Shown here piece by piece: positions 43,693 through 59,718 of a stretch of DNA of 59,718 bases. Numbering within the stretch: the stretch's first letter is position 1; every line of letters starts with the position of its first letter. Made by a program: the position numbers and the translations under genes. A model generated the notes under the pieces. That model saw nothing but the letters and a program-made list of their open reading frames with translations, ran no database searches and had not been told where the DNA came from. Source of the DNA: Cryomorphaceae bacterium BACL11 MAG-121001-bin54 (GTDB lineage Bacteria > Bacteroidota > Bacteroidia > Flavobacteriales > BACL11); NCBI GenBank assembly GCA_905182255.1, contig CAJJAH010000006.1, forward strand, positions 1 to 59,718. The letters are read 5' to 3'.

Positions 43693-44163
43693 ATGGTAGA
43701 TACAATTTCAAAAAATTGGTTTGTAATATATACAAAACCTAGGCAGGAATTAAAGGTATTGGAACACTTAACCCATTTAGGGATAGAAGCTTATACTCCA
43801 ACTAAAATTGAAGTTAGAAAATGGTCTGATCGCAAGAAAAAGGTGACCGTTTGTTTATTGCCTTCAATGGTATTGGTTTGTTTAGAGGAAAATGAAGTAA
43901 GTAAAGTATTTGAAGTTCCGGGAGTGAGAAGATATTTGTTTGTACATGGTGAGCGAGCTAGAGTCACGAATGATGAGGTTTTAGCAATGAAACACTATAT
44001 AGAAAACACTTATCAGTTGTTAGATAAAAAAGACCATTTAGTGGGGAGTAAGATAAAAATACCTTCACTAAATCAAGAAGCGGAGATAATTTCTGTTAAA
44101 GGAAAGCGTTGTATAGCCCAATTAGAATTACTTGGAGCTACTGTATCATTTCAATTGAACTAA
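43693..44163 (+). CDS. NusG-family transcription antiterminator (UpxY/RfaH-like)
   Basis: 156 aa. NGN domain: NWFVIYTKPRQELKVLEHLTHLGIEAYTPT, RKWSDRKKKVTVCLLPSMVLV, and VPGVRRYLFVHGERARVTNDEVLAM. A short KOW-type C-terminal part (LVGSKIKIPSLNQEAEIISVKGKRCIAQLELLGATVSFQL) follows. In Bacteroides, UpxY proteins encoded at the start of capsule operons allow polymerase to read through the long leader and operon. Its place directly before the biosynthetic genes, followed by a 152-base structured leader, fits that role. The preceding gap of 186 bases isolates it from the dehydrogenases. Confidence 0.9.
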   Translation: MVDTISKNWFVIYTKPRQELKVLEHLTHLGIEAYTPTKIEVRKWSDRKKKVTVCLLPSMVLVCLEENEVSKVFEVPGVRRYLFVHGERARVTNDEVLAMKHYIENTYQLLDKKDHLVGSKIKIPSLNQEAEIISVKGKRCIAQLELLGATVSFQLN

Positions 44164-44807: not shown

Positions 44808-45755
44808 ATGAATAAGAAAACTAAAATATATATTGCAGGACATAGAGGTATGGTTGGGTCTGCTGTATGGAGAGCTTTAGAAGAGAAAGGATATACAAAT
44901 TTATTAGGTAAAAAAAGTAGTGAACTAGATTTAAGAAATCAACAGGCAGTTATGAATTTTTATGCAACTGAAAAACCTGAAGTAGTGATTGATGCCGCTG
45001 CAAAAGTTGGTGGAATTCTCGCTAATAACGATTATCCCTACCAATTTTTAATGGAAAACATGCAGATTCAAAATAACTTAATTGATGGCGCATTAAATGC
45101 GGGAATTGAGAAATTTATTTTCTTAGGAAGTTCTTGTATTTATCCAAAGTTTGCACCCCAGCCATTAAAAGAAGATTGTCTACTTACTAATTCTTTAGAA
45201 CCTACTAATGAATGGTATGCCCTTGCAAAAATAACAGGTGTAAAAACCTGCCAGGCTATTAGAAAACAATTCAATAAAGATTATGTAAGTTTAATGCCTA
45301 CAAACTTGTATGGGTATTTTGATAATTTCGATTTAGAAACCTCTCATGTCTTGCCTGCAATGCTGCGCAAGTTCCATGAAGCAAAAGAAAATAATACTCC
45401 TGTAAAATTATGGGGAAGCGGAACACCAATGCGAGAGTTTTTGTTTGTAGATGATATGGCAGAAGCTGTTGTTTATGCATTAGAAAATAAATTGCCAGAA
45501 TATTTATACAATGTAGGGTCAGGTAAAGACATTACTATAAAAGAATTGGCAGAAACCATACAACAAGTAACAGGACATAACGGTGAAATTATTTGGGATA
45601 CTAAAAAGCCAGATGGGACACCAAGGAAACTAATGGATGTATCTAAAATGGCAACATTGGGTTGGGAATATAGTACCGAATTAAAAGAAGGAATTGAAAA
45701 AACATATTCTTGGTTTTTGGAGAATATAGAAAATATAAAAGAAGTTAAAATGTAA
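44808..45755 (+). CDS. fcl: GDP-L-fucose synthase
   Basis: 315-aa SDR enzyme that epimerises and reduces GDP-4-keto-6-deoxymannose to GDP-L-fucose with NADPH. Signatures: [57 protein letters not shown], the catalytic Tyr-x3-Lys in [11 protein letters not shown], and [14 protein letters not shown]. Complete. It comes before gmd, separated by 34 bases that contain a small hairpin. Confidence 0.96.
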
Positions 45756-45789: not shown

Positions 45790-46917
45790 ATGAAAGTAGC
45801 TTTAATTACAGGAATTACAGGCCAAGATGGATCTTATTTAGCTGAGCTATTGTTGGAAAAAGGATACATGGTACACGGTATTAAAAGAAGGTCATCCTTA
45901 TTTAATACTGATAGAATTGATCATTTATATCAAGATCCACACCATCCTGATCAAAAATTTAAATTGCATTATGGAGATTTATCAGATGCAATGAATTTGA
46001 CCCGTATTATCCAAGAAACACAACCGGATGAAATTTATAATTTAGGAGCTATGTCGCATGTTGCTGTTTCTTTTGATACTCCAGAATATGTAGGAAATAT
46101 TGACGGATTAGGAACTTTACGAATATTAGAGGCCGTAAGAATTTTAGGTTTAGAAAAGAAAACAAGAATTTACCAAGCTTCAACTTCTGAATTATACGGA
46201 GGTATGCCAGAAAATAAAAATGAAAAAGGTTTTTATGACGAATTCTCACCGTTTTACCCCCGTTCTCCATACGGAGTAGCTAAAATTTACGGTTTTTGGA
46301 TTACTAAAAACTATCGTGAAGCCTATAATATGTTTGCTTGTAATGGTATTTTATTCAACCACGAATCGCCAAGAAGAGGTGAAACTTTTGTAACCAGAAA
46401 AATTACCCGTGCGGTATCAAAAATAGCATTAGGGTTGCAAGATAAATTATTTTTAGGGAATTTGGAAGCTAAACGTGATTGGGGACATGCCAAAGATTAT
46501 GTTAGAATGATGTGGATGATATTGCAAGCTGACAAGGCAGAAGATTGGGTAATTGCAACAGGAGTTACTACAACAGTGAGGGATTTTGTACGTTTGGCTT
46601 TTGGAGAAGTTGGAATTGAATTAGAATTTAAAGGAGAAGGAAAAGATGAGAAAGCATATGTTACAGCATGTAATCATAAAGATTTTCAAGTCAAAATAGG
46701 TAAAGAAGTTTTATCTGTAGACCCCTCCTATTTCCGACCAACAGAAGTTGATTTGTTAATTGGAGACCCTTCAAAGGCGAAAAAAAAATTAGGCTGGGTA
46801 CCAGAACATGACTTAGCTTCTTTGGTAAAAGACATGATGGAATGCGATGTATCACTAATGAAAAAAGATATTGCTTTACTTAAAGCAGGACATGAAATTT
46901 TAAAACAGGCTGAGTAA
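45790..46917 (+). CDS. gmd: GDP-mannose 4,6-dehydratase
   Basis: 375-aa SDR enzyme converting GDP-mannose to GDP-4-keto-6-deoxymannose, the step before fcl. [62 protein letters not shown], the catalytic YGVAK in [29 protein letters not shown], and [17 protein letters not shown] are all typical. Complete and of normal length. Together with fcl it gives GDP-L-fucose for the surface polysaccharide. Confidence 0.97.
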
Positions 46918-47076: not shown

Positions 47077-48435
47077 ATGTTAAAAATACAGGATATTATT
47101 TCTAATTTTTTTCAGGGACATAAACGCTCTGTAGAGGCTAAAAAACAGATAATTTATTCTTTCGGATTAAAAGTGGTAAGTGTATTAATTGGATTGTTAT
47201 ATGTGCCGCTACTTATAGATTACTTGGATGTAGAAAGGTATGGGGTTTGGATAACATTAACTTCTATTGTTGGATGGTTTACTTTTTTTGATGCAGGATT
47301 AGGGAATGGATTAAGAAATAAACTAACAGAGGCATTAGCTTATGATAATCAAAAATTAGCTCAAGAATATGTAAGCACGACTTATGCATTAATCTCAATT
47401 GCATTTATATCTGTTCTATTAATATTTTATTGTATTAACCCTTTTTTGAATTGGAACATCATATTAAACTCAGAGAATATCCCAAAAGAAGAATTGTCAC
47501 TCTTAGCTTTAATAGTTTTTACATTCTTCTTTCTAAGATTTATTTTTCAAATTATTGGAGTTATCTTAATGGCAATTCAAAAACCTGCAATAAATAATAT
47601 TTTTGGACCTATTGGTAATTTAATTAGTCTAAGTATAATCTATTTATTAATAATTACTGCAAAAAAAAGTATAGTACTACTAGGTTTTGTAATAAGTTTT
47701 ACCCCATTATTAGTTTTAGTGTTAGCATCATTTATACTTTTTAATGGTCAACTTAGAGATTTAAAACCAAGTCTAAATAGAATAAATATGAATCATGCAA
47801 AAAGTCTTTTTGGACTAGGCATGAAATTCTTTCTTCTTCAAATCTCAGCTATAGTAATGTTTTCACTTTCTAATATAATTATCATTCAAGTTTTAAACCC
47901 TGAGCAGGTTGCTTTATATAATATATCTTATAAATATTTTCTGATACCAATAATGCTTTTCTCAATAATAATGACGCCAATTTGGTCTGCAGTTACTGAC
48001 GCATTTACAAGAAATGACAGTAATTGGTTAAAATCTACTATGAAAACATTAAATCGTATTTCAATAGTGTTTGTTATAGGAATTATTGTTATGTTATTAT
48101 TTAGTAAACAAATTTATAATACTTGGCTTGGAGACAGGGTAGATATACCACTAGAACTTTCAATGTCAATGGCCCTATTTGCAATTATTAACGTTATAAT
48201 TACTCCATATTCTTATTTCATCAATGGCATAGGGAAATTAGCTATTTCAATACGGATAACTATATTTAAAATAATATTATTCATTCCAACTGCCTATTTC
48301 TTGGTGAACACTAGTCTAGGAGCTTCAGGTGTTATGTATGCAACATGCTTTTTTAGTGTAATATCTCTGCCTATATATATATTACAAATAAATAGAATAT
48401 TTTCTGGAAATGCGAGAGGTTTATGGGGAAAATAA
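47077..48435 (+). CDS. oligosaccharide flippase (Wzx-like)
   Basis: 452 aa with about 12-14 hydrophobic segments starting at residue 28. The first segments (FGLKVVSVLIGLLYVPLLIDYLDVERYGVWITLTSIVGWFTFFDAGLGNGLRNKLTEAL) show the pattern of the MATE/MOP polysaccharide exporters, with GLGNGLRN conserved. Such proteins flip lipid-linked repeat units across the inner membrane. It follows gmd by 159 bases with no clear terminator. Together with a Wzy-like protein at 51937 it points to a Wzx/Wzy-dependent pathway. Confidence 0.88.
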   Translation: MLKIQDIISNFFQGHKRSVEAKKQIIYSFGLKVVSVLIGLLYVPLLIDYLDVERYGVWITLTSIVGWFTFFDAGLGNGLRNKLTEALAYDNQKLAQEYVSTTYALISIAFISVLLIFYCINPFLNWNIILNSENIPKEELSLLALIVFTFFFLRFIFQIIGVILMAIQKPAINNIFGPIGNLISLSIIYLLIITAKKSIVLLGFVISFTPLLVLVLASFILFNGQLRDLKPSLNRINMNHAKSLFGLGMKFFLLQISAIVMFSLSNIIIIQVLNPEQVALYNISYKYFLIPIMLFSIIMTPIWSAVTDAFTRNDSNWLKSTMKTLNRISIVFVIGIIVMLLFSKQIYNTWLGDRVDIPLELSMSMALFAIINVIITPYSYFINGIGKLAISIRITIFKIILFIPTAYFLVNTSLGASGVMYATCFFSVISLPIYILQINRIFSGNARGLWGK

Positions 48436-48814: not shown

Positions 48815-49033
48815 ATGGGTGAAATATTGAAAATGTTGGGAAGTAGTAATATACTTGGGTTGCACTTTGAATTAGAGCTTAACAAAGCAAATGCTGAAAA
48901 TTTGCCAGAATCGGTTCATATACAAAATAGCTCTGGGCGTATTGAATTAAGTGATAAAGAGTTTGTTAAATTCGCAACTACTTATTTATCTGCAAAGAAA
49001 AAATTTGAAATTTTAAAAGAAATATATGAATGA
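48815..49033 (+). CDS. 72-aa protein sharing a small domain with the ParB-like neighbour
   Basis: Not a named family. Residues about 32-55 (ESVHIQNSSGRIELSDKEFVKF) align with residues about 29-52 of the 250-aa protein at 49674 (EAIHLHYENFRIDLTSDQFLSL): the spacing of V/I-H-x-x-N, R-I-x-L and the acidic x-E/Q-F agree. It ends in a helix-forming charged tail. It overlaps the next gene by 8 bases, so it is expressed. It may be a stand-alone version of that domain acting as adaptor for the nucleotidyltransferase encoded next. Confidence 0.7.
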   Translation: MGEILKMLGSSNILGLHFELELNKANAENLPESVHIQNSSGRIELSDKEFVKFATTYLSAKKKFEILKEIYE

Positions 49034-49670
49034 TTATTTTGAAAAAGAGGAGGTTTCTAGTTGCTTTGATATTTTAAATAAAGCGAATATTAATTATATT
49101 TTACTTAGAAATATTAATAATGAATTACCAGAAAAACTATTAAGAACAAAAGATATCGATATTATTGTGCATAAAGATAATTTACAGCTTTTACATGAAA
49201 TATTTTTATTAAATGGTTGGAAACAAATAAGACACCCATATTATAAAACTCCATTTTTATATGCAATGACTCCATTTCGATTTTACGATAAAAATGGGTT
49301 ACATATAGATATCAGTTGTGAATTATCATGTCGAAGTTTAAATGATGGAGAGTGGTTCCCATTACACCAAAAAATTCAAGATGATATTTGGCTTAATAAA
49401 GTTGACATTAAGAGTAAACCTTGGAAGTATGAACTTTCTTCTGAAGATGAGTTTATACATTTAATTACAAGATGTATTTTTGATAAAAAAAAATTTAGCA
49501 AGGAGTATATTCTAAGGATTGATTTCTTATTTAATAAAATAGATTTGGAAATTACACTCTCTAAATTGCATTTAATTTTTTACAATTTTTCAAATAAATT
49601 AATAGATATGATTTCTGCTAAAGAATATAATTATTTACCTAAGACATATATAACTTATAAAGACTATTAG
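49026..49670 (+). CDS. nucleotidyltransferase-like protein
   Basis: 214 aa. The N-terminal half (NINYILLRNINNELPEKLLRTKDIDIIVHKDNLQLLHEIF) resembles minimal nucleotidyltransferase folds with the Asp-x-Asp motif in KDIDIIV. The partner HIDISCELSC supplies a third possible metal ligand. Such uncharacterised nucleotidyltransferases are frequent in polysaccharide loci. It overlaps the 72-aa gene and is followed after 3 bases by the ParB-like gene, so the three are one unit. The transferred group and acceptor are unknown. A related but longer protein is encoded at 58595. Confidence 0.68.
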   Translation: MNDYFEKEEVSSCFDILNKANINYILLRNINNELPEKLLRTKDIDIIVHKDNLQLLHEIFLLNGWKQIRHPYYKTPFLYAMTPFRFYDKNGLHIDISCELSCRSLNDGEWFPLHQKIQDDIWLNKVDIKSKPWKYELSSEDEFIHLITRCIFDKKKFSKEYILRIDFLFNKIDLEITLSKLHLIFYNFSNKLIDMISAKEYNYLPKTYITYKDY

Positions 49671-49673
49671 ATA

Positions 49674-50426
49674 ATGAGTAATCCAGCAGTAATATATTTA
49701 GCGGAATGTAAGACAAAAAGTGGAGGTAGTTTCCGTATAGAAGATAATATCGGTGAGGCAATTCACTTACATTATGAGAATTTTAGGATTGACTTAACCT
49801 CAGATCAATTTCTATCATTAGGCGCATTAATAAATAATGCAATTTCAGAAATTATTGACGTCAAAGATTTTGATTTGAAATATTTTGATCCTGTTTTTTT
49901 GGCAAATATAGGTGAGGATCTGACTGATCTAAGGGAAATGAGATTTGAAAATATTTTACTAAATAATTTAAAGATACAACGTAAAGGTATTTTTAATTTA
50001 ACAGTAGTATCTAAACTAAGTAAATCAAGGGTTATTCGAGCCATAAAAGGGGATCCAAAAGAAAATGACTCTTATATGCAATCTAACAACTATTCCGAGT
50101 CTAACCAAGATCGAGTTGATTCAATCGTAAGTAAAATTAAAAGTGAAGGGTACCCATTTAATGATCAGTATATTGTATTGTTTAATAATCAAAATATTAT
50201 AAGAGATGGGCAACATAGAGCATCTGCACTTTATATTGAAGGGGAAACCAAGATGGTTCCTGTAATCCGATTAATTTTTACAAACAATGCACATAACATG
50301 TCAAATTATCCTTGGCTAAGAGTATTGTTTTATTGGAATAAGAAAAGAATAAGGAGTATATTTATTCGTTTTTACATTAAAATAAATAGAGCTATCAAAA
50401 GAAGGAAAAGTCTTTTAGATAATTAG
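49674..50426 (+). CDS. ParB/sulfiredoxin-fold-like protein with N-terminal small domain
   Basis: 250 aa. N-terminal domain (about 20-60) is shared with the 72-aa protein. The C-terminal part, RVDSIVSKIKSEGYPFNDQYIVLFNNQNIIRDGQHRASALYIEGETKMVPVIRLIF, has the IxDGQHRA-A motif typical of ParB-N/sulfiredoxin-like folds, which in several families are ATP- or CTP-using. A basic helix (NKKRIRSIFIRFYIKINRAIKRRK) closes the protein and may bind membrane or nucleic acid. No DNA-binding HTH is seen, so plasmid partitioning is unlikely. A role in modifying sugars or lipids is possible but not shown. Confidence 0.68.
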   Translation: MSNPAVIYLAECKTKSGGSFRIEDNIGEAIHLHYENFRIDLTSDQFLSLGALINNAISEIIDVKDFDLKYFDPVFLANIGEDLTDLREMRFENILLNNLKIQRKGIFNLTVVSKLSKSRVIRAIKGDPKENDSYMQSNNYSESNQDRVDSIVSKIKSEGYPFNDQYIVLFNNQNIIRDGQHRASALYIEGETKMVPVIRLIFTNNAHNMSNYPWLRVLFYWNKKRIRSIFIRFYIKINRAIKRRKSLLDN

Positions 50427-50674: not shown

Positions 50675-51916
50675 ATGAAAATAGTAACGGTCAACCATTC
50701 GGATATTGGAGGAGGAGCAGCAAAAGCGGCTTACAGACTGCATTCCTCATTTCTGGATAATAATATCAATAGTATTTTCTTTGTTTATATTAAAAAAAGT
50801 AATGATCCCTCTGTAATAGCATATTCGAAGAAGTATAGTTCTTTTAAATCAGTGATTAGGAATACACTTGAAATGTTGCCATTACGTTTATATAAAAAAC
50901 GTAGTCCAATATTTTTTAGTGCGGCATGGGTTCGATCTTCTAATATAATAAGAGAAATCAATCGATTAAAACCAGACATTGTTCATCTGCACTGGATTTG
51001 TGGTGGAATGTTACGGATTGAAGATTTAGTAAAAATTAATGCTCCTATCGTTTGGACTTTACATGACAATTGGGTTTTTACTGGAGGTTGCCATGTCAAA
51101 TGGGAGTGTGAAAAATATAAACAAAGTTGTGGGTCGTGTCCGCGTTTGGGGAGCAAAAAGGAAAATGACCTTAGTAATAGAATATGGAAGAGGAAAAAGA
51201 AAGCTTTTTCTAAGATAAAAAACCTCTCACTGATAGGGCCTTCAAATTGGATATTAAAATGTTCTAAAGAAAGTAGCCTATTAAAAAACAATTATCATAT
51301 AAATATTCCAAACCCACTCGATATATTTAAATTCAAACCTGTTGATAAAAACGCTGCACGAGAACTATGGAATTTACCAAAAAATAAAAAGTTAATTTTA
51401 TATGGTGCAGTTGACGCTACAAGCGATATTAATAAAGGATTTAAAGAGTTTAGTGAAGCAATCCAAAAACTATCGTGTGAGAATGTAGAACTTATTGTTT
51501 TTGGAGGACCTACAAGGAATGAATCTGATTTGTTTGGATTAAAAACTCATCATATTGGTTTTTTGAATGATGAAGAAAGTCTAATTACACTTTATAGTTC
51601 TGCTGATTGCATGGTTGTACCTAGTTTGCAGGAGGCATTTGGTCAAACTGCTTCAGAAGCAATGGCTTGCCAAACTCCAGTAGTCGCTTTTAATCATTCT
51701 GGATTAAAAGATATAGTTGATCATAAAGTCAATGGATATCTAGCAATACCATTTGATACTGATGATCTATCTAGAGGTATAGATTGGGTTCTTAATAAGG
51801 GTACAAACTATAAAGAGTTATGTGTAAATGCAAGAAATAAAATTGTACACAACTTTAATAGTGATCTAATTGTAGAAAATCATATTAAACTATATAGGGA
51901 AATTATAAATCTATAA
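50675..51916 (+). CDS. glycosyltransferase family 4
   Basis: 413 aa, two Rossmann halves (GT-B). The start VNHSDIGGGAAKAAYRLHSSFLD and the middle VWTLHDNWVFTGGCHVKWECEKYKQSCGSCPRLG (a cysteine-rich insert common in this GT4 subgroup) are followed by LILYGAVDATSDINKGFKEF and the donor-binding EX7E in QEAFGQTASEAMACQTPVVAF. Adds a sugar to the lipid-linked repeat; the sugar is not deducible. The gap before it is 248 bases, the largest within this part of the locus. Confidence 0.9.
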   Translation: MKIVTVNHSDIGGGAAKAAYRLHSSFLDNNINSIFFVYIKKSNDPSVIAYSKKYSSFKSVIRNTLEMLPLRLYKKRSPIFFSAAWVRSSNIIREINRLKPDIVHLHWICGGMLRIEDLVKINAPIVWTLHDNWVFTGGCHVKWECEKYKQSCGSCPRLGSKKENDLSNRIWKRKKKAFSKIKNLSLIGPSNWILKCSKESSLLKNNYHINIPNPLDIFKFKPVDKNAARELWNLPKNKKLILYGAVDATSDINKGFKEFSEAIQKLSCENVELIVFGGPTRNESDLFGLKTHHIGFLNDEESLITLYSSADCMVVPSLQEAFGQTASEAMACQTPVVAFNHSGLKDIVDHKVNGYLAIPFDTDDLSRGIDWVLNKGTNYKELCVNARNKIVHNFNSDLIVENHIKLYREIINL

Positions 51917-51936: not shown

Positions 51937-53013
51937 ATGTATTTTATCTCAAAAATTCTTTCATCATCGTTAACTCTAAGTTTACTATTAGTCATCTTAT
52001 TGATAGTATTTTTTAGAGAATTTTTTATGTCCAAAAAAAGAAAAAATTTAATGGTATATCTAAGCGTTTTATTGCTATTTGTAGGTATTAAGTCATTAAG
52101 TACAGAATTTTTAAATGACAACGCGGTATATGATCTAAAAAAACTATTGAATATTATTATTTTACTTGGGTGTTATCCATTTTTTGAAAGATTTTTTTCA
52201 GCACATAATGCAATTAGAGCACTATTATTTTTTGAGACAGTTCTTATATTTTTATATTTTCCATTAGATTATTTCTTTATAAATGATTCTGTAAGTAATT
52301 GGAAAGTAAGTATTCAATATGCACTAGCATTCTTATTTTACGCAAATATTTTTATGTGGGAAAAAGGCATTTATAAAAAGATAAATTTTTTACTCGTAAT
52401 AATCTTAAGTTTATTTTTTATTATTTCACTTGCAAAATGGCTTATTCTAAACCTTGCAGTTTTAGTATTTATTTATGGGAAAGAAAAAAAATTCATACTA
52501 ATAGGTTTAATAATTGTTCTTATCGGATCAAATTATTTAGATAAACTGATGAAAATAAAAAATTACGATAATGTTGAAAATTATCTAGATGAGAGGATTA
52601 TTAGGTCAGAAAGTTCTACTAAACAATATTATGGGGTAAGTGATGGGGGCAGAACTGATCTATTAGCATTATATATAGACGACATAATTAATAATCCTAA
52701 ATTATTTGGCCAAGATATCGGCTATTATAACTTTATAGATGTTCATGAGCACAATTCTATTATTTTTTATTATTCAAGATTAGGACCTATTTTTTTTATT
52801 TTTATGCTATTGATATTAAATAAGTTTTTCAAGACAGCTTATCCATACAAACTTAAAGGGAATTCAAAAAGAATTGTGATTACTTTTTTTACTTATGTTT
52901 TTATCTCATTTCAAATTGGTGAATCTTATGGAGACTTAATTCCATTGCTCTCAATTATAATTACTATTGCTATATTTAATAATTGTAATAAAACTAAAAT
53001 AACTTTAACTTAA
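51937..53013 (+). CDS. polytopic membrane protein, candidate Wzy polymerase
   Basis: 358 aa with about 9-10 hydrophobic segments, beginning MYFISKILSSSLTLSLLLVILLIVFF. There is one larger non-membrane stretch (about residues 205-270, DNVENYLDERIIRSESSTKQYYGVSDGGRTDLLALYIDDI). This topology, with a sizeable loop containing Arg and ending in a VHEHNSIIFYYSRLGPIFFIF segment, is that of O-antigen/capsule polymerases (Wzy). Such proteins share little sequence, so the call rests on topology and position between glycosyltransferases. It follows the GT4 gene after 20 bases. Confidence 0.7.
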   Translation: MYFISKILSSSLTLSLLLVILLIVFFREFFMSKKRKNLMVYLSVLLLFVGIKSLSTEFLNDNAVYDLKKLLNIIILLGCYPFFERFFSAHNAIRALLFFETVLIFLYFPLDYFFINDSVSNWKVSIQYALAFLFYANIFMWEKGIYKKINFLLVIILSLFFIISLAKWLILNLAVLVFIYGKEKKFILIGLIIVLIGSNYLDKLMKIKNYDNVENYLDERIIRSESSTKQYYGVSDGGRTDLLALYIDDIINNPKLFGQDIGYYNFIDVHEHNSIIFYYSRLGPIFFIFMLLILNKFFKTAYPYKLKGNSKRIVITFFTYVFISFQIGESYGDLIPLLSIIITIAIFNNCNKTKITLT

Positions 53014-53020
53014 TTGTAAT

Positions 53021-53827
53021 ATGAAGATAAGCGTTGTAACTGTTTGTTTTAATAGTAAGAAGTTCATCGAGTTTACTTTTGAATCTATTTTAAATCAGTC
53101 TTATAAAAATATAGAATACATTGTGATTGACGGAGGATCAACGGATGGGACATTGAATGTTATTAAAAGATATGAAAAATTGTTTAATCAAAAAGGCATT
53201 TCACTTATATGGACTTCGGAAAAAGATAAGGGCATGTACGATGCTTTAAATAAAGGTTTTAAAAGAGCGACAGGTGATATATTTTGTTGGATAAATAGTG
53301 ATGACTTTTTAATGCCTTGGACATTCTCAGTTGTTGCAAAAATATTTGATAGCAATAAGGAAGTTAAGTGGTTAACAGGAATACCAACAACAATAAATGA
53401 AAGCAATATAGTGTATAATATCCCAAAATTTACACCTATTTATTTGCGATCATTTATAAAGCTGGGACTTTATAATAGTAAATGTTTAGGTTTTATTCAA
53501 CAAGAATCTACTTTCTGGAGCAGAAGTTTATGGGAGAAATCAGGAAATGAAATAGATGATTCTTATAATTTATCAGGGGATTATGTTTTATGGAAAAAAT
53601 TTTCTGAACATGCAGAATTGTATACTGTAGATACTTTTTTGGCAGGTTTTAGAACACATAGTTTACAATTAAGTTCAGACATCTCAATTTACTATGATGA
53701 ACTTCGGAAAAAGGAAATAAATATAATCTCTATTCCGGTTTCATTAAGACATTTAGTGAATATGATAATTTTCTTTTTGTATAACAAGAAACTTATCATC
53801 CGATCGTTAAAATATTTCAAACAATAA
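53021..53827 (+). CDS. glycosyltransferase family 2
   Basis: 268 aa, GT-A fold. N-terminal SVVTVCFNSKKFIEFTFESILNQSYKNIEYIVIDGGSTDGTLNVI and the metal-binding region KGMYDALNKGFKRATGDIFCWINSDDFLMP carry the DGGSTD and S-D-D motifs. The C-terminal half has FIQQESTFWSRSLWEKSG, a subgroup feature seen in WcaA-like enzymes. Starts 7 bases after the polymerase candidate. Sugar not known. Confidence 0.92.
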   Translation: MKISVVTVCFNSKKFIEFTFESILNQSYKNIEYIVIDGGSTDGTLNVIKRYEKLFNQKGISLIWTSEKDKGMYDALNKGFKRATGDIFCWINSDDFLMPWTFSVVAKIFDSNKEVKWLTGIPTTINESNIVYNIPKFTPIYLRSFIKLGLYNSKCLGFIQQESTFWSRSLWEKSGNEIDDSYNLSGDYVLWKKFSEHAELYTVDTFLAGFRTHSLQLSSDISIYYDELRKKEINIISIPVSLRHLVNMIIFFLYNKKLIIRSLKYFKQ

Positions 53828-53850: not shown

Positions 53851-54597
53851 ATGCTAAGTATAATAACGCCAGTTCTAAACGGTTCAAAATTTATAGAAAC
53901 TACTATAATCTCAATTAGTAAACTTAAAATACCACATGAACATATCATTGTAGATGGTGGTTCAACTGATAGTACTTTAGATATAATAAAAAAATATCCA
54001 AATATAATATTGTTACATCAATTAGAGAAGCTTGGAATGTATCAAGCAATAGATATGGGTATTAAAAATTCAAAAGGAGAAATTTTAACTTGGATAAATA
54101 GTGATGATAAAATTCTTAAAGATGGTTTTGAAGAAATGTATAATGAATTTATGTTAAACAAAACAGATTTAATTTTTTCTAATGGGATACATCATTTTAT
54201 TGATAAGTGTAATTATAAAGTAGTTACTGCACTTCCATATGCTAGGTATTTTTTAAAACAAGGTATTTTTCCTTTTGTTCAATCTAGTTCTATGTTTTCA
54301 AAAAAAGGGTATTGTAAAGTTGGTGGGTTTGATTATTTAAAATTTAAAATTATTGGAGACAGAGATTTATTTCAAAAAATGGCTTATGATATAACGTTAA
54401 AAATAAAATATGTCCCGGTTTTTTCATCTGTTTTTTTGCGATATGAAGATTCCTTATTATTTAGAAATATAGACTTGTTGAAAAATGAACATGAATATAC
54501 AATAAAAACTAATTCTAGTTTATTCAATAGAGGTCTCTACCATTTCTTTAGGGCAGTAAAAAATACTTATTGGAAAATAAAAAATATTAATAAATGA
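53851..54597 (+). CDS. glycosyltransferase family 2
   Basis: 248 aa. LSIITPVLNGSKFIETTIISI, HIIVDGGSTDSTLDII and EILTWINSDDKILKDGF place it in the same GT2 group as the preceding gene; the two are similar in layout (both have a late QSSSMFSKKGYC / QQESTFWSRSLW stretch) but differ enough to be old paralogues. The stop overlaps the next gene's start by 4 bases (ATGA), so translation is coupled to the kinase-like protein. Confidence 0.91.
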   Translation: MLSIITPVLNGSKFIETTIISISKLKIPHEHIIVDGGSTDSTLDIIKKYPNIILLHQLEKLGMYQAIDMGIKNSKGEILTWINSDDKILKDGFEEMYNEFMLNKTDLIFSNGIHHFIDKCNYKVVTALPYARYFLKQGIFPFVQSSSMFSKKGYCKVGGFDYLKFKIIGDRDLFQKMAYDITLKIKYVPVFSSVFLRYEDSLLFRNIDLLKNEHEYTIKTNSSLFNRGLYHFFRAVKNTYWKIKNINK

Positions 54598-55235
54598 TAG
54601 CATTTTCAGGGATTGATGGAGCTGGAAAATCGACGCAAATTGAATTGCTTAAAACACATTTTGAGCAATCTGAAAAAAAAGTAGAATTATTTTGGAGTAG
54701 AGGTGGATATTCTCCAGGCATGATGTTGCTAAAAAGTTTATTTATAAAGAAAAAAGAAATAGAAGAATGTGATGATTCAGCAATCATTATTCGTGACAAA
54801 CAATTTTCAAAGCCTTTAATAAGAAAAACATGGCTTTTTTTATCTATTTTAGACCTAATATATTTCTATGGAATATATATCAGGTTTAAAGAACTTTTAG
54901 GGATAAAAGTAATTTGTGACCGTTACATTTTTGATACTTCAATAGATTTTAGATTAAATTTTCCGCAAGAGAAAGTCGAAAAATGGTATTTATGGAGATT
55001 CTTAATTTTCTTTGCAATAAGACCCAAAAGACATTTTGTAATCACTATACCTGTTGCAGAATCAATTAGAAGATCTGCTTTAAAAGATGAACCTTTTCCG
55101 GACACCTTAGAAACTTTAGAATTAAGATTAAAAGATTATTTAGCTTTTATTGCTGAAAAAAAATTTACCGTTCATATCGATGGCACAAAGGAAATTGATG
55201 ATATTCATGCGATTATAAAAGTAGACATTTTATAA
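54594..55235 (+). CDS. thymidylate-kinase-like P-loop protein
   Basis: 213 aa. Walker A at residues 6-14 (GIDGAGKST) and the DRY-like ICDRYIFDTSID (about 105-115) match thymidylate kinase folds. However, the expected substrate loops are changed: the region after Walker A reads FWSRGGYSPGMMLL rather than the usual EPGGT, and a hydrophobic stretch (LFLSILDLIYFYGIYI) sits where the family has its central helix. A house-keeping tmk is normally elsewhere. Its ATGA overlap with the GT2 upstream and one-base overlap with the APH-like kinase downstream suggest it phosphorylates something in the polysaccharide pathway. Substrate unknown. Confidence 0.75.
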   Translation: MIAFSGIDGAGKSTQIELLKTHFEQSEKKVELFWSRGGYSPGMMLLKSLFIKKKEIEECDDSAIIIRDKQFSKPLIRKTWLFLSILDLIYFYGIYIRFKELLGIKVICDRYIFDTSIDFRLNFPQEKVEKWYLWRFLIFFAIRPKRHFVITIPVAESIRRSALKDEPFPDTLETLELRLKDYLAFIAEKKFTVHIDGTKEIDDIHAIIKVDIL

Positions 55236-56344
55236 TGAGAATTTTACTTCTAGAAGAAAGAGAAGACTTCGATAAGATACTAAAAGATACTTTAGAAAAT
55301 ACAACATTTTTCAAGAATCGAGAAGGTAAAAAAGAAGAAAAATATTTCATCAATAAGTATTTAAATTTTATTGCAACAAATAGACTTTCTGGTAATGTTT
55401 TCCAGACATTAGTCAACGAATATTCTTCCTCATTAATTTGGTGGAAAAAAGGAATGCAATTAGTTTATGTCAAATTGGCTATCTCAATGGTTTTTAGAAG
55501 CCTCTTTGCACAAAGAAGCTTAATGCTTTCAGAAGATTTTAAAAACTATTTAATTTTAGGTGGTAATCATAGATTACGTTTGTTTTATGGTGAGTTAAAA
55601 GATAGTATTGTCATATTAAAATCAGGTGAGAATCAAAAGTTTATGAAGAACGACATTGCCATCCGAACAGAGAACAATTTATCATATGCTCCTAAGATTT
55701 TTGATTCAGACAACGATTGGTTAAGGGAAGAGTATTTTAACGGAATTCCTTTTAATCGTATAGAAAGTGAAGAAAGAAAACGAAATCTAAGAGATGTCAT
55801 CATTAATAATCATTTAGAGGAATTATTATTACCAAATCTAAGGCAAATTCCTTTAACCGATTACATTCATCTTATTGAAAATGAGATGTCTGAACTCATT
55901 ACTGATGAAAATATTACGATAAAGAAAGATGTTTTAGTCTTAATTCAAAAAGTTTTTAGAATCTTATTTATGAAACTCTCAAGTAATAATGTAAAAATTT
56001 CTTGGAGTCATGGTGATTTTCAACCTGCCAATATTCTAGTGAATAACCACAATTATAAAGTGATTGATTGGGAAGCTTCAAATAAGCGTTTTTATTTGTA
56101 TGATGTATTTACATTATTCAGTAAAATAAGAAGTAATATTTCTCTTACAAAAGCTATTGAAAATTACAAGAATGTAGATAAAAGCTTTGATAAAATAAAT
56201 AAAAGAACAGAAGAAGAAATCATATTGTTATTGATTGAGGAGTTGAGATATCATATGAACGAAGAGTTTTCTAAAAACTTCTATACTGCTGGAATTAAAA
56301 CAGAGAAGTTGTGTTATTGCATAACAACATATATTTATGAATAA
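55235..56344 (+). CDS. APH-like (aminoglycoside/choline kinase fold) phosphotransferase
   Basis: 369 aa. The catalytic loop WSHGDFQPANILV gives His259, Asp261 and Asn266; IDWE at 277-280 gives the metal-binding Asp278. This is the APH/ChoK kinase fold, which phosphorylates small molecules, sugars or lipids. The N-terminal 100 residues are less clear and may be a substrate-binding or membrane-associated region. The start overlaps the previous stop by one base and its end overlaps the next gene by 8. Resistance to antibiotics is unlikely, given the context. Confidence 0.78.
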   Translation: MRILLLEEREDFDKILKDTLENTTFFKNREGKKEEKYFINKYLNFIATNRLSGNVFQTLVNEYSSSLIWWKKGMQLVYVKLAISMVFRSLFAQRSLMLSEDFKNYLILGGNHRLRLFYGELKDSIVILKSGENQKFMKNDIAIRTENNLSYAPKIFDSDNDWLREEYFNGIPFNRIESEERKRNLRDVIINNHLEELLLPNLRQIPLTDYIHLIENEMSELITDENITIKKDVLVLIQKVFRILFMKLSSNNVKISWSHGDFQPANILVNNHNYKVIDWEASNKRFYLYDVFTLFSKIRSNISLTKAIENYKNVDKSFDKINKRTEEEIILLLIEELRYHMNEEFSKNFYTAGIKTEKLCYCITTYIYE

Positions 56345-57473
56345 AAAAGCAACACTATTTAATCAAGTTACGGGTCCTTTGTTTATTGATATAGCGAATG
56401 CATATGCTAGCAAATATGATGAAGTAATTTTGATCACAGGCTCTTTAGAGCCAACTTCAACAAAATTAAACCCTAAGATCAAAATTATTCTCAAATGCAA
56501 GTATAAAAGGAATAAAGGGTATTTAAGGATATTCACATGGCTTCTTTTCTATATCCAAAGCTTTATTTACATATTATTTGAAAAATATCATGGTAAAATA
56601 CTATTTGTAAGTAACCCTCCATTATTACCTTTTTTAGGAAGTAATTTTTATGGGAGTAAAAACATAGATTTTGATGTTCTGATATATGACGTATATCCAG
56701 ATGCACTTTCAAATTTTGGGTATATTAAAGAAGGATCATATTTATACCGATTTTGGGATCGAATGAATAAGAAAGTTTATAAAAAAGCCCAAAGAATTTT
56801 TACAATTAGTGAAGTAATGAAAAAGTTTGTTGCAAGAAATGTTGAATCTTCTAAAATTAAAGTTGTTTATCCTTGGGTAGACACTTCATTCATTAAGCCA
56901 ATGAGAAAAAAAGATAATAGTTTTGTTGAGAAAATCGGGTTAAGTGACAAAAAAGTTATTTTGTACTCTGGGAATATGGGTTTAACTCATGATTTAAAGA
57001 TCGTACTAAAGACCGCTAAAAAAATGAACGCTTCAAAAAATAACTTTCACTTTCTTTTTATAGGAGATGGTGCGCAAAAAAAAAACTTGTTAAGATATAA
57101 AGAAGATAATAACTTAAGTAACGTTACTTTTTTACCCTATCAAGATCCCGAAGTATTGCCATTTTCTTTTGGCTCTGCAGATTTTGCAATCGTTTCTTTA
57201 AGCTCTGTTGCAGAAGGGCTATCAGTCCCTAGCAAAACATTTTATTCTTTAGCAGCGGGTTCCGCTATAATTGCTATTTCAGAAAAAGGTTCAGAAATAG
57301 AACAATTAATATCAAAAAATGATTGTGGTATATCGATACAGCCAAATGAAGTCTCTATAATGAGAGATTTTTTAACTAATACTTCAGATTTAGATTTAGA
57401 ACAAATGAAAAAAAACTCTAGAATTTTAAGTAAGCAATTTACAGTTGCGAATGTTAAATACTTTTTGAAATAA
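56337..57473 (+). CDS. glycosyltransferase family 4
   Basis: 378 aa. The N-terminal half (ATLFNQVTGPLFIDIANAYASKYDEVILITGSLEP) and the donor half (VILYSGNMGLTHDLKIVLKTAKKMN, HFLFIGDGAQKKNLL, EGLSVPSKTFYSLAAGSAIIAIS) are those of GT-B enzymes similar to WbuB-type transferases, with E-x-x-x-P-S-K-x-F/Y in the donor site. DVYPDALSNFG is the usual WbuB-like DxYPD motif. Overlaps the APH-like gene by 8 bases and is followed by another GT4 overlapping by one. Confidence 0.9.
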   Translation: MNKKATLFNQVTGPLFIDIANAYASKYDEVILITGSLEPTSTKLNPKIKIILKCKYKRNKGYLRIFTWLLFYIQSFIYILFEKYHGKILFVSNPPLLPFLGSNFYGSKNIDFDVLIYDVYPDALSNFGYIKEGSYLYRFWDRMNKKVYKKAQRIFTISEVMKKFVARNVESSKIKVVYPWVDTSFIKPMRKKDNSFVEKIGLSDKKVILYSGNMGLTHDLKIVLKTAKKMNASKNNFHFLFIGDGAQKKNLLRYKEDNNLSNVTFLPYQDPEVLPFSFGSADFAIVSLSSVAEGLSVPSKTFYSLAAGSAIIAISEKGSEIEQLISKNDCGISIQPNEVSIMRDFLTNTSDLDLEQMKKNSRILSKQFTVANVKYFLK

Positions 57474-58588
57474 TGGGGAAAGTTATTTTTATTGGAAATT
57501 ATCCACCTCCTTTTTCAGGACAGTCAATCGCATTTAAAACATTAGTTGATGGCTATAGCATTAAATCTAAAGATTTCTTTGTAATAAATACCATAGAAAA
57601 AGTAGGTAAAAGAGGAGTTGTATACAGAATTTTTGACTATATAGGTGTAATTTTTAGACTTCTGTATTTATTACTTTCTAAGAAAGTAGACACTGTATAT
57701 CATATTGTATCTAGTAATAAGAATGGGTTTATCAGAGACTTTGTTGTAATTAATATTTCTTACTTCTTTAGAAAGAAAGTTGTCTTGCATTCTCATAATG
57801 GTAATTACGATCAATTTTACGATTCATGTTCAGATTCATTAAAAAAAACAATCTTTAAAACAATTCATAGGGCAAATATAATTATACTTTTAAGCAGAAA
57901 ACTAAGAAATACTTTTTACTTCATTAAAAATGACAGTAAGTTTGCGTACGTAAATAACGGATTGCCTATAGATAGACCTAAAGTGTTAGATAAACGTAAA
58001 GAAGAAGTTTTTTCTATATTATACTTATCAAATCTTATTGAATCTAAAGGATACTTAGATGTCATTAATGCTGCTATATTAATGAAAAAACTGAAAATAT
58101 TAACAAAATTTCATTTTCACTTTGCTGGTGACTTTATGCTAAATCCGTCTCAAGATAAATCATATAAATCGATTAAGGAAGCTAGTCAATTATTTTTAGA
58201 TTTAATAGAAGATAATAAGTTGTCTGAGTATATCACTTATCATGGGATAGTACAAGGAGAAAAGAAAAATAATTTATTACATAATGCTGATGTATTTTTA
58301 TTGCCAACTTACTATAATGTAGAAGCTCAGCCACTAACAATAATTGAAGCAATTGCATATGGTTGTGCTATTTTCGCAACAAATTTTAGAGGTATTCCTG
58401 AAATGTTGATTGATGGACATAATGGCAAGTATGTAGATGCAAATTCTCCATCTGATATAGCAGAAAAACTAAGTTATTTAAATAGGGCGGATATTCAAGA
58501 ATATTCAATATATTCAACTGATTTATTTGATAAAAATTTCACCAAAGAAAAACATATAAGTAATATGCTTAATTTAATAGGACTTTAA
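57473..58588 (+). CDS. glycosyltransferase family 4
   Basis: 371 aa. Opens with VIFIGNYPPPFSGQSIAFKTLVDG, the G-N-Y-PP-P start of many GT4 enzymes. The donor half shows FSILYLSNLIESKGYLDVINA, FHFAGDFML and AEAQPLTIIEAIAYGCAIFATNFRGIPEML (the EX7E equivalent as Q-P-L-T-I-I-E-A). Its stop is 6 bases before the final partial gene. Sugar not known. Confidence 0.9.
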   Translation: MGKVIFIGNYPPPFSGQSIAFKTLVDGYSIKSKDFFVINTIEKVGKRGVVYRIFDYIGVIFRLLYLLLSKKVDTVYHIVSSNKNGFIRDFVVINISYFFRKKVVLHSHNGNYDQFYDSCSDSLKKTIFKTIHRANIIILLSRKLRNTFYFIKNDSKFAYVNNGLPIDRPKVLDKRKEEVFSILYLSNLIESKGYLDVINAAILMKKLKILTKFHFHFAGDFMLNPSQDKSYKSIKEASQLFLDLIEDNKLSEYITYHGIVQGEKKNNLLHNADVFLLPTYYNVEAQPLTIIEAIAYGCAIFATNFRGIPEMLIDGHNGKYVDANSPSDIAEKLSYLNRADIQEYSIYSTDLFDKNFTKEKHISNMLNLIGL

Positions 58589-58594
58589 AAGAAA

Positions 58595-59718
58595 ATGAAA
58601 AAAGAGTATAAAGAAATATTGAATCTTGCTTTGTCTAGTAAGCATATCGACGAAAAAGTTATCAAATTAAAACAACTATGGAGTTTAATTATAGAAGAAT
58701 CTCTTTTTCAACATGCACAAGAAGATGAAGTAGCAAGCCACATTGCTTATATTCTAAAGTCTAGTAAATTAAAATATGCTTCTTTTTGGGATAAAGTTTA
58801 TATAGATACCGATCATTGTATTACTGTTTTAATGGATGTGTTAGAAGAAGTAGCAAGTAAATTAAAAGAAAATAAAATCGATATAGTTGCCCTAAAAAAT
58901 GCAGGAATTACTAAAGCTATTTTTAAGAATAATGCATGTTCTCCAATGGGAGATCTAGATTTGTTAGTAAGAAGTAAAGACTTTAGAAAAGCACATGAAA
59001 TTATTTTAAACGATTTAGATTTTACTTTTAAATTTAGGTCTGAGTTTGAAGAAGAAGATTTAGAGGAAGCTTTCCGTGGAGGAGGGACAGAGTATTACAA
59101 AATTGTGGATGGGCATAAAGTTTGGTTAGAATTACAATGGAGGCCAATAGCAGGAAGGTGGATTCAACCGCATAATGAGCCCAATGGAGATGAATTAATG
59201 AATGGTTCAATAGAAGTAGAAAACTCAGATGTGAGAATTCTTTCTCCAGAAGATAATTTATTACAAGTAGCTTTGCATACAGCAAAACATTCCTATGTAA
59301 GGGCCCCTGGTTTTAGATTGCATTCAGATGTGGATAGAATTGTAAGATTCCAAGCAATTGATTGGAAAAAATTTGAAGAAAAGGTTTGTAATTTAAAAAT
59401 AAAAACTGCCGTATACTTCTCATTATATTTTGCTTCTCAATTAATTAAAACTCCAATTCCTGACTTTATTCTTAGTTCATTAAAGCCATCATGGTTAAGA
59501 AAAAAAATGATATTACGATTCATTAATAAAGCAGGAATTTACAACCAAAACAAAAAAAAGTTTTCTAAAATAGGTTATATTGTATTTAACTTAGCTTTAT
59601 ATGATTCTATTGGAGAAAATATCAAAGCAATATTCCCTTCATATAATTCAATTAAAATTAAATACCCAATAAAAAACAAACTACAATTACCATATTTCTA
59701 CTTTATTAGAATTAAAGA
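58595..59718 (+). CDS. nucleotidyltransferase family protein (NTP_transf_5-like), runs off the window
   Basis: Open from ATG 58595 to the window edge without a stop, at least 374 aa. The core IVALKNAGITKAIFKNNACSPMGDLDLLVRSKDFRKAHEII has the K-x-A-x-x and MGDLDLLV (metal Asp pair) motifs of the uncharacterised nucleotidyltransferase family Pfam NTP_transf_5. WLELQWRPIAGRW and DNLLQVALHTAKHSYVRAPGFRLHSDVDRIV follow in the usual place, so the fold is complete. Such genes recur in capsule and exopolysaccharide loci. It is a second nucleotidyltransferase in this locus, along with the shorter one at 49026. Confidence 0.8.
   Translation, partial: MKKEYKEILNLALSSKHIDEKVIKLKQLWSLIIEESLFQHAQEDEVASHIAYILKSSKLKYASFWDKVYIDTDHCITVLMDVLEEVASKLKENKIDIVALKNAGITKAIFKNNACSPMGDLDLLVRSKDFRKAHEIILNDLDFTFKFRSEFEEEDLEEAFRGGGTEYYKIVDGHKVWLELQWRPIAGRWIQPHNEPNGDELMNGSIEVENSDVRILSPEDNLLQVALHTAKHSYVRAPGFRLHSDVDRIVRFQAIDWKKFEEKVCNLKIKTAVYFSLYFASQLIKTPIPDFILSSLKPSWLRKKMILRFINKAGIYNQNKKKFSKIGYIVFNLALYDSIGENIKAIFPSYNSIKIKYPIKNKLQLPYFYFIRIK

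Follow-up and report, generated by a model that had tools for sequence, protein, structure and literature searches.

The window analysed here, 59,718 nucleotides that make up the whole of contig CAJJAH010000006.1 (C6) from the draft genome of Cryomorphaceae bacterium BACL11 MAG-121001-bin54 (1.04 Mb, 53% completeness), holds two neighbouring kinase genes within a polysaccharide locus. The first encodes a thymidylate kinase (TMK)-like P-loop kinase of 213 amino acids (54594–55235, + strand), the second an aminoglycoside phosphotransferase (APH)/choline-kinase-like protein of 369 amino acids (55235–56344, + strand). We give about an even chance to the reading that this pair supplies the kinase activities of a dedicated module with three activities, found in Wzx/Wzy-type exopolysaccharide (EPS) loci, which would build a phosphate-containing polysaccharide substituent. 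What stands out above chance is that the pairing of the two kinases is conserved; the overlaps of their genes do not count towards it. Across the open reading frames (ORFs) from 53851 to 58588, which encode a family 2 glycosyltransferase (GT2), the TMK-like protein, the APH-like protein and two family 4 glycosyltransferases (GT4), successive overlaps of 4, 1, 8, and 1 nt were found, in agreement with an earlier sequence-only reading, according to which start-stop overlaps join both kinases and the flanking glycosyltransferases. Such tight overlaps are ordinary in bacterial operons and alone are no evidence of function.

Fused and separate forms of the kinase pair

A set of 395 genomes of the phylum was searched with the window TMK-like protein and, separately, with a two-row APH profile. 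The nearest phylum relatives of both kinases were the two ends of one protein of 785–822 residues, with a nucleotidyltransferase-like domain in the middle; this fusion to TMK-like domains sets the relatives of the APH-like protein apart from the APH/choline-kinase family as known. Beyond its own two members, the APH profile matched five genomes, in all five cases within a frame that the TMK search had matched independently, with the two matches 643–841 nt apart and in frame. As there were 5 to 13 first-look candidates in each of these five genomes, four scored, meeting the fused frame in every genome is beyond chance. When the plain APH protein was used as query at order level (395 genomes), five matches other than its own came back, namely three fused frames, one 359-aa frame elsewhere and one broken frame. 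Among 149 relatives, the TMK-like protein found five matches outside its own genome. Four of these lie in frames of 787–910 residues; the fifth, in genome G129 (L015:8235–9529), is a TMK-like gene that overlaps the gene of a 221-aa nucleotidyltransferase-like protein with hydrophobic stretches, between glycosyltransferase-like genes.

To describe the fused family, genome contigs were scanned with four aligned fused proteins as query and with scan peptides taken from the APH part only. The counts given below refer to the best 80 of at least 189 relatives, among at least 588 stretches; these 80 loci include Flavobacterium, Chryseobacterium, Hymenobacter, Pedobacter, and Balneolaceae. In all 80, HGDxxxxN and a P-loop further on occur within a single ORF, a figure to be read with the ranking in mind: loci were ordered by how well they match the fused query as a whole, and full-length proteins are favoured in this way. 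The motif DR[YFHW]xxDxxxDxxR was found in 78 loci, an xDxD motif between the APH motif and the P-loop in 72, and D[WF]E past the APH loop in 67. Among 27 aligned fused members, the catalytic residues H249, D251, N256, D268, and E270 of the APH part, D410, D412, and D460 of the nucleotidyltransferase part, and K589, T591, D683, R684, and D688 of the TMK part were invariant. The AlphaFold model of a 787-aa fused protein is confident and compact (pLDDT 88.9, pTM 0.84), and structure comparison retrieved TMK folds and APH(2'') kinases; one list of structural neighbours was filled by the TMK domain and is silent on the nucleotidyltransferase.

The fused protein is situated within a conserved Wzy-type EPS locus. 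Neighbour clusters, counted over the 80 loci with some of them shortened by contig ends, comprise an export protein (49), a Wzz/Wzc-like protein (61), a protein without Pfam match (62), a GT4 (65), Wzy_C (64), a DUF1972 glycosyltransferase (65), and a WecA-like transferase (51). A hexapeptide acetyltransferase follows directly past the fused gene in 60 loci. Two more GT4 clusters occur in 65 loci, a count that includes locus L136 of genome G694 described below, and in 66 loci, a count that includes both L136 and the window.

On plasmids, the fused query matched one Hymenobacter record, in which the protein is fused, one record of Agrobacterium leguminum and four of Leisingera. In the Agrobacterium record and the one Leisingera record that was opened, both with the genes in polysaccharide loci, the APH protein has its own gene and a protein of 457–465 aa is nucleotidyltransferase-like and then TMK-like. 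The two genes are annotated there as 'phosphotransferase' and 'hypothetical protein', respectively. Used as queries, the Agrobacterium APH protein and the nucleotidyltransferase-TMK protein each matched the same 6 of 72,556 plasmids.

Separate genes for both kinases recur in G694, a genome of another class. There, a TMK gene and an overlapping APH gene come before the orthologue of the GT4 gene at 56337–57473 of the window (+ strand, PF00534), which in the window shares 8 nt with the APH gene. Sequence identities between the two loci amount to 44% (43–44%) for TMK, 37% for APH, 43% for the GT4 (L136:7621–8754), and 60% over 362 residues for a PF14907-like protein, the orthologue of the window nucleotidyltransferase at 58595, which is found with further polysaccharide genes downstream of the GT4. 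GDP-mannose-dehydratase-like and fcl-like genes precede the kinase pair. Conservation of the pair together with a nucleotidyltransferase, which had been proposed as a check on the sequence-only reading, is thus found in G694 with the 58595-type protein, and in many Bacteroidota the parts are fused. A TMK profile applied to 391 genomes of the class of G694 (E up to 1e-9) detected G694 and one weaker match, which is a housekeeping tmk. The window TMK-like protein alone as query gave no related locus in the general scan of genome contigs and no plasmid match; the TMK of G694 gave four weak plasmid matches, of which the two opened are both archaeal and outside polysaccharide loci. Of the matches of about 200 aa from the phylum TMK search, the four examined (those of G412 and G660, and the tmk genes of G999 and G694) were ordinary tmk in other surroundings.

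Active-site motifs of the three parts

The TMK-like protein scores 39.1 bits against PF02223 (cut-off 27) and 39.4 bits against TIGR00041, the equivalog of deoxythymidine monophosphate (dTMP) kinase, which is below the curated cut-off of 83.25. Its AlphaFold model, built with 30 sequences, has a pLDDT of 74 and is weak in two places (residues 37–52 and 59–66). It resembles dTMP kinases over the full length (best Foldseek E 7.3e-10) and aligns with 5h70_B over 183 residues with a Z of 17.7 and a root-mean-square deviation of 3.4 Å. The fold over its whole length, the P-loop (GIDGAGKST, for the pattern GxDGxGKST) and the DR motif (DRY) are shared with Tmk.

In solved Tmk, dTMP is contacted by EPGG, by the Arg of the SASRAQ helix and by SxxAYQ. 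The window protein carries RGGYSP and DRYIFDTSIDFR at the altered sites. Five ordinary tmk sequences (from E. coli, from G694 and from three other Bacteroidota) were compared with 15 EPS-type rows, window included and G129 omitted. EPGG, the helix Arg and AYQ are present in 5/5 ordinary and 0/15 EPS-type sequences: REPGG is replaced by RGGYxP or RPxxxP, the SASRAQ Arg is without counterpart, and SIAYQ is exchanged for an Asp-bearing motif. At position 118 (window numbering) all 15 EPS-type rows have Asp, whereas the five ordinary tmk have Ala; at position 114 the 15 rows likewise have Asp, the register of the ordinary tmk being ambiguous there. The partner of the SASRAQ Arg is an Asp by ungapped equal spacing to DR and Tyr 95 by MAFFT, and absence of the Arg alone is claimed. 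The altered substrate loops reported from the sequence were confirmed by this comparison, and the dTMP-binding residues were found changed rather than intact. In the window the three parts are separate genes, so there is no fused polypeptide, and Asp at positions 114 and 118 is as in the fused TMK motif.

The APH-like protein exceeds the PF01636 cut-off of 23.2 bits by a narrow margin (23.9 bits), and the match is confined to residues 252–300. Its likeness to the family lies in SHGDFQPAN and IDWE, which represent the catalytic HGDxxxxN motif and the metal-binding Asp; HGDF, N and DWE are common to the APH proteins of the window and G694 and to four fused rows.

Two nucleotidyltransferases in the same locus had been noted, and both indeed belong to PF14907 (NTP_transf_5; cut-off 31.2), with a DxD motif: a small protein of 214 aa (49026–49670, + strand, 35.4 bits) and a large one (58595–59718, + strand, 121.8 bits), whose gene is truncated at the contig end. 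Pfam lists this family as uncharacterised; PsmN, a protein of lasso-peptide modification discussed below, is presumably another member. No convincing solved relative was found by sequence for the large protein. The small one has a local match to the nucleotidyltransferase half of the Agrobacterium nucleotidyltransferase-TMK protein (41% over 49 aa, E 5e-06 for one comparison), and a search of 197 other genomes of the phylum gave no intact relative; the link of its gene to the kinase module is weak, and its membership uncertain. For the middle domain of the fused protein, the profile comparison with the nucleotidyltransferases of the window, G694, Agrobacterium and Leisingera yielded a P of 1.5e-05 and a probability of 79.6%, and the search for solved relatives none that convinced.

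Proposed role and competing explanations

Hydroxyl groups are the targets of APH kinases and phosphates those of TMK-type kinases; PF14907 comprises proteins of nucleotidyltransferase fold. The proposed module would accordingly combine three enzymes: a hydroxyl kinase of the APH type, a nucleotidyltransferase of the Pol-beta type, and a TMK-like kinase with an altered dTMP site. The APH enzyme would phosphorylate an acceptor hydroxyl, on a small precursor or on the lipid-linked repeat unit. The TMK-like enzyme would phosphorylate a phosphate, either on the intermediate made by the APH enzyme or on a partner substrate, and the nucleotidyltransferase would make or use an activated phosphodiester. 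Since one polypeptide holds all three active sites in the fused form, the steps would act on one common intermediate or on intermediates that follow one another. The family chemistry, the fusion, and the precedent of PsmK/PsmN suggest that the product is a phosphate-based substituent or an activated EPS building block. Joint activity of all three parts in one pathway, their substrate, the order of steps and the product are what we infer and propose from sequence. Successive phosphorylation and nucleotide transfer on a sugar or lipid intermediate, as put forward in the sequence-only reading, is in keeping with a conserved module that has intact motifs; the place given there to the gene at 49026 did not hold up as well, and the chemistry itself stays at the level of a proposal. 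More tentatively, the family may represent a widespread, undescribed trifunctional enzyme with hydroxyl kinase, nucleotidyltransferase and phosphate kinase activities, present as a fusion in Bacteroidota and as separate genes in the window. It would make a new phosphoanhydride- or phosphodiester-activated Wzx/Wzy building block and thereby constitute a new route to phosphorylated polysaccharides, a dTMP kinase having been recruited to a non-nucleotide substrate.

The part families are known, while the trio and its fusion are apparently undescribed: searches of full-text literature, in a coverage outside which most subscription journals lie, turned up no account of the pair, of the fused protein or of PF14907 by accession. 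The fused gene, which belongs to the conserved core of an EPS locus common in Bacteroidota, has no assigned role, and the annotations opened read phosphotransferase or hypothetical protein. If the module phosphorylates the polymer, this would explain charged, metal-binding coats, provide an example, open to testing, of a nucleotide kinase taken over for glycan chemistry, and contribute to the definition of PF14907. The fusion allows the question to be addressed through one gene in a cultured strain.

Several observations weigh against the proposed module. The form with separate TMK and APH genes is rare, being limited to the window and G694 across the sets of 395 and 391 genomes, which overlap, and the G129 locus gave no APH match at E 0.1. 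In a tree, window plus G694, the fused clade and housekeeping tmk form a three-way split with long branches, and a grouping of window and G694 with the fused clade, to the exclusion of housekeeping tmk, was not recovered. Four of the six plasmids matched by both Agrobacterium queries come from one genus, and the ranking of the best 80 loci mentioned above bears on the constancy of the fusion. The middle domain of the fused protein matched no Pfam nucleotidyltransferase family, and its comparison with the 49026 protein alone reached a probability of 4.3%.

Among the alternatives, a sugar or polyol salvage route is rather unlikely, though the best placed. Here, the APH enzyme would form a sugar-1-phosphate, the nucleotidyltransferase would convert it to an NDP-sugar-like donor, and the TMK-like enzyme would supply or remodel the nucleotide, so that the product would be an ordinary donor and the polymer free of phosphate. 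Sugar salvage works through a kinase together with a nucleotidyltransferase, the APH family consists of hydroxyl kinases (its members AmgK and NahK make sugar-1-phosphate), and the module is placed among glycosyltransferases. However, the nucleotidyltransferases are PF14907 proteins, and a family scan of 16 window proteins gave no RmlA-type match, whereas MurU, the partner of AmgK in cell-wall salvage, is RmlA-type. AmgK/MurU is also without a TMK-like partner, and a kinase that supplies nucleotides leaves the changed and shared acceptor motif of the TMK-like proteins unexplained.

Phosphorylation and modification of a protein or peptide, which would regulate or prime EPS export, appears improbable. 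TMK-type kinases act on small phosphates, and neither an HPr-kinase-like nor a PqqD-like match was present among the 16 proteins scanned. What favours it is the analogy with lasso peptides, on which PsmK/PsmN place phosphate and hexose on a serine, and an annotated nucleotidyltransferase is needed for the hexose on the phosphate, yielding a phospho-sugar on a peptide (PMC9266682). PsmK/PsmN is like the module proposed here in that a kinase makes the phosphate and has an annotated nucleotidyltransferase as partner (PMC9266682), and unlike it in the peptide substrate, the HPr-kinase-type kinase and the absence of a TMK-like partner.

A supply of dTDP-sugars, with the TMK-like protein acting as an additional dTMP kinase to provide the pathway with dTTP, is very improbable. 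It would account for the TMK fold, and the Leisingera locus carries rfbABCD; the loci of the window and G694, however, carry the GDP-fucose pair, with the dTDP-rhamnose set seen in neither, and the dTMP-site motifs are changed.

A housekeeping dTMP kinase sitting in this operon by chance is scarcely credible and was rejected: neither this draft nor any of 14 genomes of the genus has a canonical dTMP kinase above the TIGR00041 cut-off, but the protein scores below half of that cut-off, its dTMP-site motifs are altered, the 13 other genus genomes (four of them with 90% completeness or more and 5% contamination or less), which likewise have to make dTTP, were without a match in the search of 149 relatives, and G694, the source of the closest TMK orthologue, holds an ordinary tmk at a separate place besides the EPS-type gene. 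The sequence-only reading had taken an intact dTMP site and the lack of another tmk in the genome as signs of such an enzyme; as to the latter, a second tmk was not found in the draft. Weak hits of the dTMP kinase search outside the window were traced to two deoxynucleoside kinases about 5 kb apart on contig C1 (308000–318000 region). One of them, C1:309678, is the other PF02223 match of the draft, adjoins a folK-like gene and matches PF01712 with 137 bits; the second, C1:314949, does so with 194 bits. Judged from the 14 genomes, the genus seems to be without any canonical dTMP kinase.

Remaining genes of the polysaccharide locus

The locus spans from about 43.7 kb to the contig end; the genes given here with coordinates are on the + strand. 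It is headed by a NusG-like protein (43693–44163), and antiterminators head Bacteroidota capsule loci. A mannose-6-phosphate-isomerase-type cupin is listed between this gene and the GDP-fucose pair, which comprises an fcl-like epimerase (44808–45755, PF01370) and a GDP-mannose 4,6-dehydratase (45790–46917, PF16363). A Wzx-like flippase follows (47077–48435), which at 26 bits is slightly below the PF01943 cut-off of 28.2.

A 250-aa protein (49674–50426), whose gene starts 3 bp past that of the small nucleotidyltransferase, gave no Pfam match above cut-off and no convincing solved relative; we take its 'IIRDGQHRASAL' box to recall ParB/sulfiredoxin-fold proteins. Further downstream, a GT4 (50675–51916, PF00534) precedes an ORF for a multi-pass protein without family match, which is Wzy-like by position only (51937–53013). 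Two GT2 genes (53021–53827 and 53851–54597, both PF00535) lead up to the kinase pair, the second with the 4-nt overlap into the TMK-like gene. Past the pair and the GT4 shared with G694, another GT4 (57473–58588, PF00534) lies before the large nucleotidyltransferase.

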